A program made the position numbers and the translations under genes. 34,141 nucleotides of DNA, from positions 1 to 34,141 of the forward strand of contig CAKZJB010000022.1 of NCBI GenBank assembly GCA_936940865.1, given 5' to 3'. This document shows, piece after piece, positions 4,816-14,480 of this stretch (positions are counted from its first letter, which is position 1; every line of letters begins with the position of its first letter). The notes below the pieces were generated by a model that saw only the letters and a list, made by a program, of their open reading frames with translations, did not search any database and was not told where the DNA came from. The DNA comes from an uncultured Asticcacaulis sp. (GTDB taxonomy: Bacteria; Pseudomonadota; Alphaproteobacteria; Caulobacterales; Caulobacteraceae).

Positions 4816-6489
4816 ATGAGAACAACGATGACGGCCGCAGCGGCAATCCTGACGGCCCTGTCCGTTCTTTTCATCGGGCCCCATGCCCGCGCCGCCGCGC
4901 CGGCCGGTCAGGCCGCGTGTACGGCCTTGGCCCATCAGGCCGTTGCTTTCCCCGATCCGTCGACGCGGATAGCGTCGGCCGACTACCGCGCGGCGGCCAA
5001 TGGCTTGCCGGCCCATTGCGAGATCATAGGCGTTGCGCAGGAGCGCGACGGCGCCAACCACCAGCATTACGCCATCCGCTTCCACCTGCGCCTGCCGGAC
5101 GCCTGGACCGCGCGCTTCCTGTTCGAGGGCGGCGGCGGGCTGGACGGCGACATCGGCAACGCCACAGGCCCCGGCAATGCTGTTGGGCAAGGCTATGCCG
5201 TCGTCAGCCAGGATTCCGGCCACAGCAACGCGACCAATTCCGACCCGGCGCACAACGGCCCGGCGGCTTTCGGCTTTGACCCACAAGCGCGCGAAAACTA
5301 CGGCCACGCTTCGCTGAAAATCACGGCGGATGCCGCCAAGGCGATCATCAAAGCCTATTACGGCAAGGGCCCGGACCACAGCTATTTCGTCGGCTGCTCC
5401 AAGGGCGGCCAGGAAGGCATGGCCTTTGCCCAGCGCTATCCCGACGAATTCGACGGGATACTGGTGACGGCGCCCGGCTTTGCCCTGCCGCGCGCGGCGA
5501 TAGCCGAGGCCTGGGACACCCAAAGCTTCGCCAACCTCGCCCGGACAAAATCCGGTTCGGTGCCGTTCGATGGCCTTTCGAAAGTGTTTTCCGCCAGCGA
5601 CTATGCGCTCGCCCGCGACGCCATCCTCGACGCCTGCGACGGCCTCGACGGCCTGAAAGACGGTATGGTCGGCGACGCCCGCGCCTGCACCGACGCCCTG
5701 GTCCTGCCGAAACTGGCGGCCCGCACCTGCACGGGACCGAAAACGGATGCCTGCCTGTCCGCCGCCCAGGTGGCGGCGCTGACGCGCGTCGTCCATGGCC
5801 CGCGCAATTCCAGGGGCGAAACGCTTTACAGCGACTGGGCCTGGCCGTCGGGCATCAGCGCGCCCGACTGGGCCATGTGGAAGACCGGCACGCCCGACGG
5901 CCGCGTTCCGGCGCTTAACGTGGTGCTCGGCGGCCCGGCCATGGCCTCGATCTTCATGACCCCACCCAAGGCAATCGGTGGCGATCCGCAAGCGATCCTG
6001 AATTACCAGCTCATGTTCGACTTCGACAAGGACGCGCCGCGCATCTACACGGCCACCGCGCCCTTCCCCCATTCGTCGTGGGAAGACATATCGGCACGGT
6101 CCGACGACCTGTCCGGCTTCCATGCCCATGGCGCCAAGATGATCGTCCTGCACGGCGAATCCGACCCGGTCTTCTCGCTCAAGGACACCGAAAACTGGTA
6201 CGACGCGGTCAACACGCGCTTTGGCGATGCGTCAAGCTTCGTCCGCCTCTTCCCCATCCCCGGCATGTGCCATTGCGGCGGCGGCCCGGCCGCCAGCACC
6301 TATGACGCCCTGTCGGCCCTGACCGCCTGGGTCGAAGGCGGCACGGCGCCCGACGCCATTATCGCCACAGCCGACGGCAACACGCCCTGGCCCGGCCGCA
6401 CCCGGCCGCTGTGCCCCTATCCGCTGGTCGCCCGCTATGACGGCAAGGGCGACCCGGAACGCGCCGAAAGCTTCACTTGCAAAGCGTAA
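4816..6489 (+). CDS. Secreted tannase/feruloyl esterase-family hydrolase
   Basis: A 557-residue alpha/beta hydrolase of the tannase/feruloyl esterase family, which hydrolyses ester bonds of gallate or hydroxycinnamate. Residues 1-30 form a signal peptide ending near ARAAAPA, so it acts in the periplasm or outside the cell. The CS-D-HC arrangement of the family is complete: C194-S195 in GCSKGGQEG, D450 in HGESDPVF, and H486-C487 in GMCHCGGG. The cysteine pair is expected to bridge the catalytic serine and histidine. The start at 4816 is chosen for the GAGGG site five bases upstream and because the signal peptide begins there; a GTG at 4786 is in frame but lacks a site. It follows the halogenase gene by 57 bases and is probably co-transcribed. 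It ends nine bases from the convergent DUF1593 gene. Confidence 0.88.
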   Translation: MRTTMTAAAAILTALSVLFIGPHARAAAPAGQAACTALAHQAVAFPDPSTRIASADYRAAANGLPAHCEIIGVAQERDGANHQHYAIRFHLRLPDAWTARFLFEGGGGLDGDIGNATGPGNAVGQGYAVVSQDSGHSNATNSDPAHNGPAAFGFDPQARENYGHASLKITADAAKAIIKAYYGKGPDHSYFVGCSKGGQEGMAFAQRYPDEFDGILVTAPGFALPRAAIAEAWDTQSFANLARTKSGSVPFDGLSKVFSASDYALARDAILDACDGLDGLKDGMVGDARACTDALVLPKLAARTCTGPKTDACLSAAQVAALTRVVHGPRNSRGETLYSDWAWPSGISAPDWAMWKTGTPDGRVPALNVVLGGPAMASIFMTPPKAIGGDPQAILNYQLMFDFDKDAPRIYTATAPFPHSSWEDISARSDDLSGFHAHGAKMIVLHGESDPVFSLKDTENWYDAVNTRFGDASSFVRLFPIPGMCHCGGGPAASTYDALSALTAWVEGGTAPDAIIATADGNTPWPGRTRPLCPYPLVARYDGKGDPERAESFTCKA

Positions 6490-11260: not shown

Positions 11261-12424
11261 GTGCGAAACATCTCGATCTGCCTAAGCCTCACCATCACGC
11301 TGCTGGCCGGCGGCACTGCCGCCGCCCACGCCGCCGCTCCGGCGTGGCACGGCGTGTGGCGCGGCACGATCGGAACGTCCAAGGTCCAGGTCTGCCTGCA
11401 ACATACCGATTACCAGGACTTCGGCGCCTACTATTACATGCGCCACCTCCAGATCATCCGCCTTGAGGCCCCGGACAAACCCGCCGGCAAGGACCTGGCC
11501 ACCTGGACGGAGGGCGATGCGTCGGCCCCATCGGCCCAAAACCCGCAATGGCACGTCACGGCTGTAAAGAACGGCCACCTCGACGGCACCTGGACCGGCA
11601 ACGGCAAATCCCTGCCCATCGCCCTTACCTCCGTGGCTATGGACAAGGACAGCGACGACCAGCCGTGTGGGTCAATGGCCTTCAGCCTGCCGCGCTTCAC
11701 CAAACCCGCCGTGACCACCAAGCCGGCGAAGGTCGACGGCATCGCCTATACCCGCGTGGTGGCCGATATCGACAAGGCATTTTCCGACTCCAGCTTCGAG
11801 ACCTTCCAGCTTCTGGGCACCAGCCCCGCCATCCGCCGCATCAATGCCGAGCTCTATAAGGACGTCCCGAAAGATGCCGGGCACGCCGACTATTTCCAGT
11901 GTTCGATGGATGCGCTCGCCCAGGGCTGGAACGGCAGCCGCACGTCGGAAATAAAGCCCGAGACCCTGACGCCGGGCTTCATGGTGGTGGCCGATTCCGA
12001 AAGCTGGGATTGCGGCGGTGCCCATCCCGACGCCAATACCAGCTACCAGACCTGGGATCTGCGCAAGGGCACGAAGATCGACGTCTACGGCCTGCTGACC
12101 GGGTCCGCCCTGGCCCGGACGGTGCATGACAAGGGCACGGCCAACGAATATTCCGAGATTACCTACACCGCACCGTTCAAGGCCATGATCCTTCGCGCCT
12201 TTCCCGCCGCCGACGCCGACTGCAAGGACGCTGTTGAAACGACCGAAACCTGGAATGCGCGCCTGACCGCAAGCGGCATGGCCTTCACGCCCGAACTGCC
12301 CCACGTCGCCGCCGGCTGCGTCGATGACGCCGTCATCCCGTTCGCCAAACTCCAGCCCTACCTGACGCCCGACGGCAAGGCCCTGGTCGCGGCCTTCCAG
12401 GCCGAGGTCAAGGGGCGGAAATAG
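11261..12424 (+). CDS. Secreted protein with an RsiV/DUF3298-like C-terminal region
   Basis: A 387-residue protein starting at GTG with an AGGGGG site eight bases upstream. Residues 1-26 form a signal peptide (LLAGGTAAAHAAA), so it is periplasmic or secreted. The C-terminal half contains DCGGAHPDANTSYQTWDLRK, then a KIDVYGLL segment, and close to the end a PFAKLQPYLTPDGKAL segment. This order resembles the DUF3298 domain of the anti-sigma factor RsiV, which binds lysozyme, but no transmembrane or anti-sigma segment is present, so a different role is likely. Cysteines at several places suggest disulfides. There is no operon partner: katG ends 186 bases upstream. The family call is tentative and the function unknown. 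Confidence 0.6.
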   Translation: MRNISICLSLTITLLAGGTAAAHAAAPAWHGVWRGTIGTSKVQVCLQHTDYQDFGAYYYMRHLQIIRLEAPDKPAGKDLATWTEGDASAPSAQNPQWHVTAVKNGHLDGTWTGNGKSLPIALTSVAMDKDSDDQPCGSMAFSLPRFTKPAVTTKPAKVDGIAYTRVVADIDKAFSDSSFETFQLLGTSPAIRRINAELYKDVPKDAGHADYFQCSMDALAQGWNGSRTSEIKPETLTPGFMVVADSESWDCGGAHPDANTSYQTWDLRKGTKIDVYGLLTGSALARTVHDKGTANEYSEITYTAPFKAMILRAFPAADADCKDAVETTETWNARLTASGMAFTPELPHVAAGCVDDAVIPFAKLQPYLTPDGKALVAAFQAEVKGRK

Positions 12425-12550
12425 ACGATAAGTCTTTCCCTTGCCCTGCGCTGCCAGCCCGTCCACTTTCAACATTTGAAAGCAAACATGATTGTGCCCA
12501 TATGGAATCTGCCTCCCTTGAGCCATCGTGCTCTAGCGGACAGACTTGAC

Positions 12551-12603
12551 GTGCACTGCCTTTTGGATTACGTCCTTAGGACGTAATCCAAAAGGCAGTG
12601 CAC
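12551..12603. repeat. Perfect 53-bp palindrome IR1 upstream of abiE
   Basis: Two 26-base arms are exact reverse complements around a single T at 12577. The centre is ACGTCCT-T-AGGACGT. CCTTT lies six bases outside the core on the left, and its mirror AAAGG lies on the right, exactly as in IR2. It is upstream of the -35 box of the abiE promoter, with its centre 98 bases from the centre of IR2. It is probably a DNA operator for the AbiEi repressor. Confidence 0.85.
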
Positions 12604-12639
12604 TCGAACCGTGGGAGACGTTCACTCACCAGAAGTCCC

Positions 12640-12668
12640 TTGACTTAGTCGAATATCCTTTATATAAA
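12640..12668 (+). promoter_or_regulatory. Sigma-70-type promoter of the abiE operon
   Basis: TTGACT (12640-12645), a 17-base spacer and TATAAA (12663-12668). The -10 box lies inside the left arm of palindrome IR2. Transcription should start near the IR2 centre, so the mRNA would contain only the right arm. This argues that IR2 acts as DNA rather than as an RNA hairpin. The leader before the abiEi ATG would be about 32 bases. Confidence 0.65.
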
Positions 12669-12699
12669 CGTCCTAAGGACGTTTATATAAAGGATATTC
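12651..12699. repeat. Perfect 49-bp palindrome IR2 over the abiE promoter
   Basis: Two exact 24-base arms surround a single A at 12675. The core is ACGTCCT-A-AGGACGT, with CCTTT at 12657-12661 and AAAGG at 12689-12693. With IR1 it defines the shared pattern CCTTT-N6-ACGTCCT-W-AGGACGT-N6-AAAGG. It overlaps the -10 box, so bound protein would block transcription. The outermost arm bases are symmetric too but differ from IR1. Confidence 0.88.
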
Positions 12700-12706
12700 A
12701 TTCGAT

Positions 12707-13615
12707 ATGGCGCCGCGAGTTGAGGCTTTTTTTCCTGAGAAACTCACCAATGCGGCCAAGCGCCTAGCTGAGATATTGCGTGAAAACAATAAGCCGGTGC
12801 TGACATCTTACGACTTCCATCACCTCGTCTGGGAAATGTATCGCCAGCCAGACCGCAAGAAGCTTTACCTTCGGCGTGAAACGCCCGCAGCAGAGGACAC
12901 CAACCGCCTGCGAACAAGTCTTCGCAAGGCCGGAATCATTGGTTCAGATCCCGACTACGGAGCGAAGGTGATCCGAGTACTCTCCATTCCTGACCTTCCC
13001 GCCGATGATATCGTCTGTATGCTGGATTCGACATGCTACGTTTCGCACTTGTCGTCCATGCAGCGTTGGGGCCTTACCGACCGTCATCCTGAAAAGCTGA
13101 TCCTGAGCCGGCCCGATAGAACGATTGCGCAAGAACGTCTGAAAGAAAAAATGGAAATTGCCCGGAGCGCCGGAGAGGAAGTGCTATTTCCGCTGCGGAT
13201 TGTCGCGCATCCGCACGTCGTACGACAGCGCAATATTATGGTGTTTGAAACGAAGGCGGCCGGTGCGAGCCTCCAAAGCCGCGGAACGAATGTCAGGGTT
13301 GCGACTATAGGCCAGACCTTTCTCGACATGGTGCAAAAGCCAGACCTATGCGGCGGGATGTCCCACGTCCTCGATGTCTGGCAAGAACACGCGAAGACCT
13401 ATCTGGATGAGATCGTGGCCGCTGTTGATACGGCCAAGTCCGACATAGCGAAAAGCCGCGCGGGCTATATCCTTGACGAACGGCTGCGCCTGCACCACCC
13501 TCAAATTGAGCTTTGGAAAGCGCTAAGCCAGCGCGGCGGATCGAGAAAACTCGACCCAGACAAGGACTTTTCGCCACTCTATTCCGAAGTCTGGATGCTA
13601 TCCCTGAATGTCTGA
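12707..13615 (+). CDS. AbiEi-like antitoxin/transcriptional regulator (type IV TA)
   Basis: A 302-residue cytoplasmic protein resembling AbiEi-family antitoxins. The N-terminal 100 residues look like a winged-helix unit (LAEILRENNKPVLTSYDF, then NRLRTSLRKAGII). The centre carries the family-like stretch CYVSHLSSMQRWGLTDRHP, where AbiEi proteins have a YIS..SAL..HGL pattern. No transmembrane segment or signal is present. There is no strong Shine-Dalgarno sequence: AAAGGA lies about 13 bases upstream, inside palindrome IR2. The stop overlaps the toxin start by eight bases (ATGTCTGA). G+C is lower than around it (27 of 60 bases at 12781-12840 against 38 of 60 at 9301-9360 in katG), suggesting transfer. 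In characterised AbiE systems AbiEi represses its own promoter through inverted repeats, which fits IR1 and IR2. Confidence 0.8.
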   Translation: MAPRVEAFFPEKLTNAAKRLAEILRENNKPVLTSYDFHHLVWEMYRQPDRKKLYLRRETPAAEDTNRLRTSLRKAGIIGSDPDYGAKVIRVLSIPDLPADDIVCMLDSTCYVSHLSSMQRWGLTDRHPEKLILSRPDRTIAQERLKEKMEIARSAGEEVLFPLRIVAHPHVVRQRNIMVFETKAAGASLQSRGTNVRVATIGQTFLDMVQKPDLCGGMSHVLDVWQEHAKTYLDEIVAAVDTAKSDIAKSRAGYILDERLRLHHPQIELWKALSQRGGSRKLDPDKDFSPLYSEVWMLSLNV

Positions 13616-14480
13616 ACCCCTCGAAGTCGATGTTGCCGCATGGGTAGAGAAAGCCAAAGCCGACCCTGTCACCTATCGCCAACGTCAAGCCGTCGAGGTA
13701 ACCCTGAACGCCATCGCAATGACAGCTCCTCTGAACGAGAAGCTGTATCTCAAGGGAGGGATTTTGATGGGGCTGGCTTACAACAGCCCGCGCCAGACCT
13801 CCGACGTCGACCTGACCGCGGCTTTCACAGCAGACGTCGACATCGGCGAGAAAATCAAGACGTCAATTGAATCGGCATTTCCGCGCGCCGCGGCGAAACT
13901 TGGTTATACCGATCTGATCTTGAAGGTCCACTCGGTCAAAAAGGAGCCGGGGAAAATCTTCGAAACAGCCACGGCGCCGGCGCTCAAGATGAAAATTGCG
14001 TTCGCCGTGCGCGGAACACTTCAAGAGGAAGCCTTAAAGGCGGGTAAGGTGCCTGGTCTCATCGAAGTCGATATATCCTTCAACGAGGTATTAAAACACT
14101 TCCAACTGCTGGAACTTACCGGCGGGCCGGAGTTACGCGCCTACAGCTTATCGGAGCTCATGGCCGAAAAATACCGCTCGATGCTTCAGCAGGTCTACCG
14201 CAACCGTAATCGCCGTCAGGACGTCTTTGATCTGGACCGGCTTTTGGAAGAGCATAAGCCCGATGGCGCCTTAAAAGCTGAAATACTGAATACTTTCATC
14301 GAGAAATGCCGTTCCCGGAAAATTGAGCCCGCACCGGACTCACTCGATAACGACGCGGTAAAAACCCGATCGGGGAAAGAATGGGAAACGCTCAAACTTG
14401 AGCTTGGCGAATTGCCGAAGTTCGAAGCGTGCTATAAACGCGTCAACGAATTTTACAAAAGCCTGCCTTGGCAAAAATAG
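13608..14480 (+). CDS. AbiEii/AbiGii-family nucleotidyltransferase toxin
   Basis: A 290-residue DNA polymerase beta-fold nucleotidyltransferase, the toxin of type IV AbiE systems; characterised members inhibit growth and can abort phage infection. Motif I is LKGGILMGLAYNSPRQTSDVDL, with G50-G51 and the metal-binding D66 and D68. The later family motif is AEKYRSML with K188, followed by RRQDVFDL with D205. All catalytic positions are present, so it should be active. The start overlaps the antitoxin stop by eight bases, implying coupled translation. Length is typical (about 290-300). Low G+C and isolation among chromosomal housekeeping genes suggest acquisition as a two-gene cassette with its own promoter. 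Confidence 0.9.
   Translation: MSEPLEVDVAAWVEKAKADPVTYRQRQAVEVTLNAIAMTAPLNEKLYLKGGILMGLAYNSPRQTSDVDLTAAFTADVDIGEKIKTSIESAFPRAAAKLGYTDLILKVHSVKKEPGKIFETATAPALKMKIAFAVRGTLQEEALKAGKVPGLIEVDISFNEVLKHFQLLELTGGPELRAYSLSELMAEKYRSMLQQVYRNRNRRQDVFDLDRLLEEHKPDGALKAEILNTFIEKCRSRKIEPAPDSLDNDAVKTRSGKEWETLKLELGELPKFEACYKRVNEFYKSLPWQK

Follow-up and report, generated by a model that had tools for sequence, protein, structure and literature searches.

Perfect palindromes with a nearly fixed centre and drifting arms upstream of abiEi in a subfamily of AbiE operons

The window analysed here is a 34,141-nt stretch of an uncultured Asticcacaulis sp. (contig CAKZJB010000022.1, positions 1 to 34,141), in which a bicistronic operon of a phage-defence toxin–antitoxin type, abiEi (12707–13615) and abiEii (13608–14480), is preceded by two perfect palindromes, IR1 and IR2. 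Comparison with related loci shows that such palindromes lie near the abiEi start in many bacterial groups and share a nearly fixed centre, and that outside this centre the symmetry of the arms has been conserved and their letters have not. Operators are normally recognised by conserved letters.

The abiE operon and its upstream palindromes

The features of the region, in order of position, are as follows.

12546–12550, + strand: TTGAC directly upstream of IR1, a possible second, tandem promoter whose −10 box is poor here
12551–12603, no strand: IR1, perfect palindrome; arms 12551–12576 and 12578–12603, 26 nt, 100% complementary; 1-base centre 12577
12570–12584, no strand: IR1 centre, ACGTCCTTAGGACGT (sequence and comparison)
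12640–12645, + strand: −35 box TTGACT of the putative abiE promoter, just outside IR2 (sequence and comparison)
12651–12699, no strand: IR2, perfect palindrome; arms 12651–12674 and 12676–12699, 24 nt, 100% complementary; 1-base centre 12675
12663–12668, + strand: putative −10 box TATAAA, within the left arm of IR2 (sequence and comparison)
12668–12682, no strand: IR2 centre, ACGTCCTAAGGACGT (sequence and comparison)
12689–12694, + strand: AAAGGA, a possible ribosome-binding site within the right arm of IR2
12707–13615, + strand: abiEi, 302 aa, predicted antitoxin and likely autorepressor (Pfam AbiEi_1, PADLOC AbiEi, structure model)
13608–14480, + strand: abiEii, 290 aa, predicted nucleotidyltransferase-type toxin overlapping abiEi by 8 bases (Pfam AbiEii, PADLOC AbiEii)

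A palindrome search recovered both repeats as the initial annotation had described them, exact over arms of 26 and 24 bases and with centres 98 bases apart, and the promoter sequence that it had proposed (TTGACT and TATAAA with a gap of 17 bases, the −10 box inside IR2) is present. The −10 box falls within IR2, whose right end is 7 bases short of the abiEi start codon. As single-stranded DNA, IR1 folds with −30.9 kcal/mol and IR2 with −21.4 kcal/mol. A simple promoter scan gave no promoter above its own threshold, so the assignment of the abiE promoter rests on position and comparison: 56 of 66 distinct loci have TTGAC 31–40 bases to the left of the IR2 centre, and none has it at the mirror place on the right. 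Because the −10 box falls in the left arm of IR2, transcription would start at about the IR2 centre (12675). At IR1, TTGAC stands on the left in 21 of the 66 loci and on the right, on the opposite strand, in 22 (counts given without a computed chance level), from which IR1 probably covers a second promoter that is tandem in some lineages and divergent in others. No intrinsic terminator, sought as a short GC-rich stem with a T run, was found in 12400–12800.

The protein assignments draw on profiles and on a structure model. The Pfam AbiEi_1 match of abiEi, at 23.9 bits, is barely above the cut-off of 22.2, and the PADLOC AbiEi profile matches at 5.5e-99 over profile positions 2–285 of 285; abiEii matches Pfam AbiEii (3.9e-28) and PADLOC AbiEii (9.7e-103). 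A model of AbiEi built with 43 relatives (mean pLDDT 92.5) has as its top Protein Data Bank (PDB) matches the AbiEi antitoxin of Streptococcus agalactiae (6y8q_A, E 1.5e-05) and Rv2827c of Mycobacterium tuberculosis (1zel_B, E 3.4e-05), with modest TM-scores of 0.40–0.56; a sequence-profile search of the PDB with AbiEi, at E up to 1, matched neither 6y8q nor 1zel. As in AbiE type IV toxin–antitoxin systems, AbiEi is encoded directly upstream of AbiEii, is modelled as a two-domain fold with an N-terminal DNA-binding domain, and has inverted repeats across its promoter, though their architecture differs from that of known AbiE. The match of the fold to known operator-binding proteins, AbiEi and Rv2827c, is one of several supports for IR1 and IR2 very likely being AbiEi operators.

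Recurrence at related abiE loci

A scan of a genome collection with an alignment of AbiEi relatives gave 120 loci, of which the best 80 were taken; two of these (L061, L082) begin at a contig end, leaving 78 loci with upstream sequence. The 80 loci are labelled Alpha-, Beta- and Gammaproteobacteria, Rhodothermales, Nitrospinae, Acidobacteria, Verrucomicrobia, Desulfobulbaceae, Cyanobacteria and others, many of them being metagenome bins whose taxon labels are possibly wrong. At least one palindrome with arms of at least 13 bases lies near the abiEi start in 75 of the 78 loci, and exactly two lie there in 55; the 130 palindromes of the whole set mostly have arms of 19–26 bases and a 1-base centre. 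Only the central 9-base TCCTNAGGA is nearly fixed among them, four of the 130 deviating from it (in L032, L047, L064 and L086). The first eleven plasmid loci fetched (L101–L111, from Rhodobacterales, Serratia, E. coli, Klebsiella, Citrobacter and Xanthomonas) have two palindromes each.

The palindromes far exceed what chance would give and are not a reflection of generally palindrome-rich DNA, which we rejected on counts over all 498,210 bases of the 80 loci: 128 perfect palindromes (arms of at least 13, loops of at most 3) fall in the searched stretch upstream of abiEi, versus 7 elsewhere; of the 128, one in L074 bears no relation to the centre. One of these 7, with the same centre and 25-base arms, lies downstream of abiEii (L034, 4873–4923), so that this operon is flanked on both sides. 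The exact 15-mer ACGTCCTNAGGACGT was found in 5 of 388 genomes from the order, at 7 places that all lie within abiE promoters; its backwards control, counted among the matches listed, occurs once in each of 5 genomes. The confinement of the 15-mer to abiE promoters and the recurrence of palindromes near abiEi starts both support the initial annotation's reading of the repeats as AbiEi operators. Further operator copies in the window's own genome were limited to two sites with 2 mismatches each, fewer than the backwards control gives.

A feature common to all AbiEi proteins was likewise rejected: 26 loci of distant PF09407 relatives (20 other genomes of 289 of the class), some ending near a contig end, have neither this centre nor arms of at least 15 bases. 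One of these distant relatives (L146, 2189–2265) carries two perfect palindromes with 14-base arms, 49 bases apart, that share a different centre, TATAGTATATATACTATA, and differ at their outer ends, which may be the same style in another AbiEi subfamily; another (L141) has one palindrome with 13-base arms.

Arm symmetry and arm length

To keep symmetry out of the choice, the 9-base TCCTNAGGA was the only criterion for picking sites, sought at the gene start and up to about 350 bases before it, which gave 128 sites in 78 loci and 76 representatives differing at more than 4 of 20 bases. Counted outwards from the centre, the two arms of the representatives are complementary at 603/608 pairs at positions 6–13, 445/456 at 14–19, 191/228 at 20–22 and 276/912 at 24–35, versus 41%, 29% (28.9%), 28% and 28%, respectively, when right arms are reshuffled; every position from 7 to 22 shows all four pair types. 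Symmetry kept outside the shared motif, singled out in the window by the initial annotation, is thus found in kind throughout these loci. Two of the 128 sites have arms shorter than 13 bases: one in L068, which lies inside the gene, has no arms and adds mismatches, and one in L075, which is palindromic apart from one mismatched pair at position 6.

An earlier set of 117 palindromes admits only arms of at least 13 bases, which fixes its values up to position 13 in advance; it carries 0.02–0.28 bits of information per base at positions 13–22, and its pairing falls from 98% at position 19 to 80% at 22, 48% at 23 and 30% at 24. The stem thus has a defined length, pairing dropping sharply after about position 22, and its letters are nearly free. 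The limit of symmetry lies near position 22–23, the commonest arm length is 22 (47 of the 128 sites), and the arm lengths of IR1 and IR2 correlate (rho 0.58 over 37 loci whose arms differ, with shared ancestry left in). The longest arms found, 32 bases, belong to a Pseudanabaena locus (L081, 2940–3004; centre ATCCTGAGGAT). What appears to be conserved is hairpin pairing and not sequence, as would be looked for in a cruciform-controlled promoter.

Pairing could also be kept at the level of RNA, the transcribed palindromes forming stems that, for example, hide the ribosome-binding site of read-through transcripts or serve as an RNase III site. AAAGGA within the right arm of IR2 would indeed be hidden in a read-through transcript. 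RNA stems tolerate G–U, yet among the 16 mismatched pairs at positions 6–19 (of 1064 pairs) there is one G–T, and this rarity makes selection for pairing in the forward RNA unlikely; moreover, a start at the IR2 centre would leave only half of IR2 in the main transcript, and the region holds no terminator-like site. We regard an RNA hairpin as very improbable.

How far base-specific recognition might reach is suggested by comparing the two palindromes of one locus, which are presumably bound by one protein. In 37 loci with differing arms, IR1 and IR2 agree at 0.69 of positions 6–8 (0.53 when permuted) and at 0.43 of positions 9–13 (0.34 permuted, P 0.0045); at positions 14–20 the agreement is 0.317 versus 0.278 permuted and is not clear (P 0.098). 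We read this agreement at 6–13, and its lack of clarity at 14–20, as AbiEi specificity extending to about 13 bases from the centre.

An ordinary protein operator, in which the 22–23 bases of an arm are all contacted by AbiEi, its specificity drifting from lineage to lineage, and the symmetry mirrors that of a protein dimer, would account for the likeness of positions 6–13 within a locus and for arms that are more conserved than flanks in recently diverged sets, and the available text on known AbiEi and Rv2827c sites gives them as 23-base repeats (PMC3985639, PMC7319586). At positions 14–20, however, IR1 and IR2 agree hardly above the level between loci, and additive contacts do not require exact mirror identity. 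The two-part motif of the initial annotation, CCTTT-N6-ACGTCCT-W-AGGACGT-N6-AAAGG, is present in both IR1 and IR2, but its outer part is not family-wide: none of 122 other palindromes with arms of at least 19 bases has CCTTT at positions 14–18, so that only the centre is a shared element. Contacts along the whole arm therefore seem to us an improbable explanation.

Loci that lack palindromes

The three of the 78 loci without a palindrome are L045, L091 and L096. In L045, abiEi contains a stop, and in L091 it is split between frames; a second locus on the same chromosome record as L045 (L046) has an open abiEi and has kept a palindrome with 17-base arms. In L096, abiEi is open and no abiEii was detected within 3000 bases downstream, where a 3′–5′ exonuclease gene lies on the other strand. 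This apparent dependence of the palindromes on the genes speaks for selection on a working operon.

How arms and centres change

Near relatives were compared along 22 spanning-tree edges in 8 clusters with a flank difference of at most 15%, the window and L080 (which contains N) having been excluded beforehand. Flanks changed at 68/1997 sites, and both arms changed together at 15/836 pairs (positions 1–19 with the invariant centre, one L073 change entering on two edges), so that the per-site rate of both-sided arm change is about half that of the flanks. As expected of template switching, changes mostly fall on both arms: the 15 both-sided changes compare with one-sided differences at 6 positions, which come from three recent variants seen between near-identical plasmids (L114, L115 and L123, the last an insertion). 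The comparison thus shows concerted evolution of the palindrome arms. An earlier comparison of arms with fourfold sites was set aside, because limiting it to the shorter perfect arm forces the one-sided count to zero and because the upstream sequence of some pairs is far more diverged than the gene.

The base at the centre changes far faster than the flanking DNA. It differs at 12 of 44 sites over the 22 edges, 8 of the 12 being exchanges between A and T. In the subset with a flank difference of at most 5%, flanks changed at 12/1548 sites and centres at 5/34, 4 of the 5 between A and T as spacer inversion predicts, although the events are few and 4 of the 12 in the wider set are non-complementary. 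Many records among the matches listed by a megablast of the E. coli operator have a second place and few differences; four of them were fetched, and three of these (L112, L113, L119) have a flipped centre.

Exact pairing might instead be selected for its own sake, if AbiEi, the trigger of AbiE defence or another factor recognised a DNA hairpin or cruciform with a fixed stem of about 22 pairs and the conserved TCCTNAGGA at its tip, and if extrusion through supercoiling or single-stranded DNA (in replication, transfer or phage attack) switched the operon. An operon of this kind would sense supercoiling or single-stranded DNA, not sequence, and its letters would drift freely while the arms stayed exact copies. 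Sequence-free pairing with a sharp end near position 22, the correlated lengths of IR1 and IR2, the very stable single-stranded hairpins and the absence of palindromes where abiEi is broken would all fit. Selection alone, however, predicts visible one-sided intermediates or slow paired change, and the paired changes observed run at about half the flank rate. Extrusion would also be slowed by the GC-rich centre of the palindromes. We consider an operator read by its structure unlikely, if the least unlikely of the alternatives to template switching.

Selection on pairing alone would hardly yield paired changes at roughly half the rate of the flanks that leave few lasting one-sided states behind, and template switching is the likeliest agent of arm homogenisation. 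The initial annotation had raised hairpin copying as a recent origin of both palindromes; as a process that maintains them it fits, but a recent origin is not borne out and was rejected, since palindromes found through the subfamily in many groups must be old.

Neighbouring genes and other occurrences

On two Rhodobacterales plasmids (L101, 458–3876, and L122, 119–2211) the operon is preceded by a tyrosine recombinase gene and a WGR-domain gene, followed in L101 by an N-6 DNA methylase gene. Compared by eye, the IR1 arms of L069 and L072 resemble the IR2 arms of the L063 group and vice versa, as would follow from an exchange of the segment or of the operators.

A search of IMG/VR for phage relatives of AbiEi matched 6 stretches, none of which was confirmed. 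A viral contig (L159, IMGVR_UViG_3300028822_000310) bearing genes for a major head protein and a portal/head–tail adaptor (PHROGs) has, beside the major head protein gene, a perfect palindrome with 19-base arms and the same centre (TCCTTAGGA) at 5471–5509; it is possibly a phage-borne copy or decoy of the AbiE operator, or else an unrelated phage hairpin. A second (L160, IMGVR_UViG_3300033153_006335) has a palindrome with 18-base arms and the same centre at 213–249, in AT-rich DNA before phage genes of exonuclease and Holliday junction resolvase families. Three other viral matches (L161–L163) are without long arms, that of L162 reaching 13 bases.

Discussion

We suggest that IR1 and IR2 are AbiEi operators across the promoters of an autoregulated AbiE type IV toxin–antitoxin operon, IR2 spanning its −10 box and its presumed start site, and that AbiEi binding there would repress the operon. 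AbiEi would read the nearly fixed TCCTNAGGA together with bases preferred by each lineage out to about position 13, and would not read the outer arms (14 to about 22) base by base. There, a change in one arm would soon be copied to the other arm, or removed, by hairpin template switching during replication (quasipalindrome correction), while selection on a working operon would hold arm length near one AbiEi footprint of about 22–23 bases. That arms of this length fit one footprint is a resemblance, known AbiEi sites being of 23 bases per arm. On the present comparison we think it probable that the outer arms co-evolve in this way, by copying through a hairpin with selection on the operon setting their length.

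Several observations weigh against this explanation. Few centre flips were seen, 4 of the 12 being non-complementary, and one 17.6-kb record with a second megablast place (L116) shows no flip. One-sided states do occur: as arm variants in E. coli and Klebsiella plasmids (L114, L115); as a one-base insertion that breaks the symmetry of the IR1 left arm in the Xanthomonas citri plasmid pla (L123), whose longer span is common to 19 of the 23 listed Xanthomonas records with at least 99% identity, the sequence having been read for L123 only; as the position 6 mismatch in the second palindrome of L075; and as centre mismatches in L032, L064 and L086. Over short times, therefore, symmetry can be dispensed with. 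Arms are conserved more than flanks in the E. coli/Klebsiella and Xanthomonas sets, and some sequence constraint thus reaches the outer arms. Five of the 16 mismatched pairs are A–C or C–A and would pair by wobble on the opposite strand, in numbers too small to say more, and a near-constant arm length is not explained by template switching alone. Last, L042 has a palindrome though abiEii was not detected, and L032, L039 and L040 retain theirs despite stops in their abiEii alignments; because these loci keep palindromes, the presence of a palindrome looks tied to abiEi.

If our reading is right, these operons would be a natural family in which template switching is the keeper of a regulatory element, and an operator of this kind would be visible to conservation-based motif searches by its centre only. 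It also makes a testable claim on what AbiEi reads, and perhaps on what triggers AbiE. The exact symmetry may be no more than a by-product of homogenisation, or it may, more interestingly, bring an advantage of its own.

Comparison with known systems

Template switching is described, in the available text of PMC8604942, PMC7202029 and PMC8794818, as perfecting imperfect repeats, homogenising their arms and inverting their spacers. The abiE palindromes resemble such quasipalindrome correction in that their arms are made identical; the cases described there concern an E. coli reporter, yeast genes and RNA genes, whereas ours is a bacterial operator family recognised from sequence. In the open-licence literature we found no account of quasipalindrome correction as the long-term keeper of a bacterial operator family, and no prior description of perfect, sequence-free palindromes at abiE.

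As far as the available text of the cited papers describes them, two characterised AbiEi-type operators invite comparison. The promoter of M. tuberculosis Rv2827c, whose fold the AbiEi of the window matches, has two repeat pairs, each repeat 23 bases long, in the 131 bases upstream, and this AbiEi-type antitoxin binds them; 13 bases separate the members of a pair and the repeats have a common consensus, exact mirror copies not being described in that text (PMC7319586). In S. agalactiae, as in the window, inverted repeats lie over the promoter of a bicistronic abiEi–abiEii operon, where AbiEi binds two 23-base repeats and represses the operon (Dy et al. 2014, PMC3985639; Beck et al. 2020, PMC7319586). 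The S. agalactiae operator is one pair, 3 bases apart, with 4 mismatches in 23 and a perfect run of 11 bases at the outer ends; the window, in contrast, has two palindromes, each exact over its whole arm, with a fixed centre and free outer ends.
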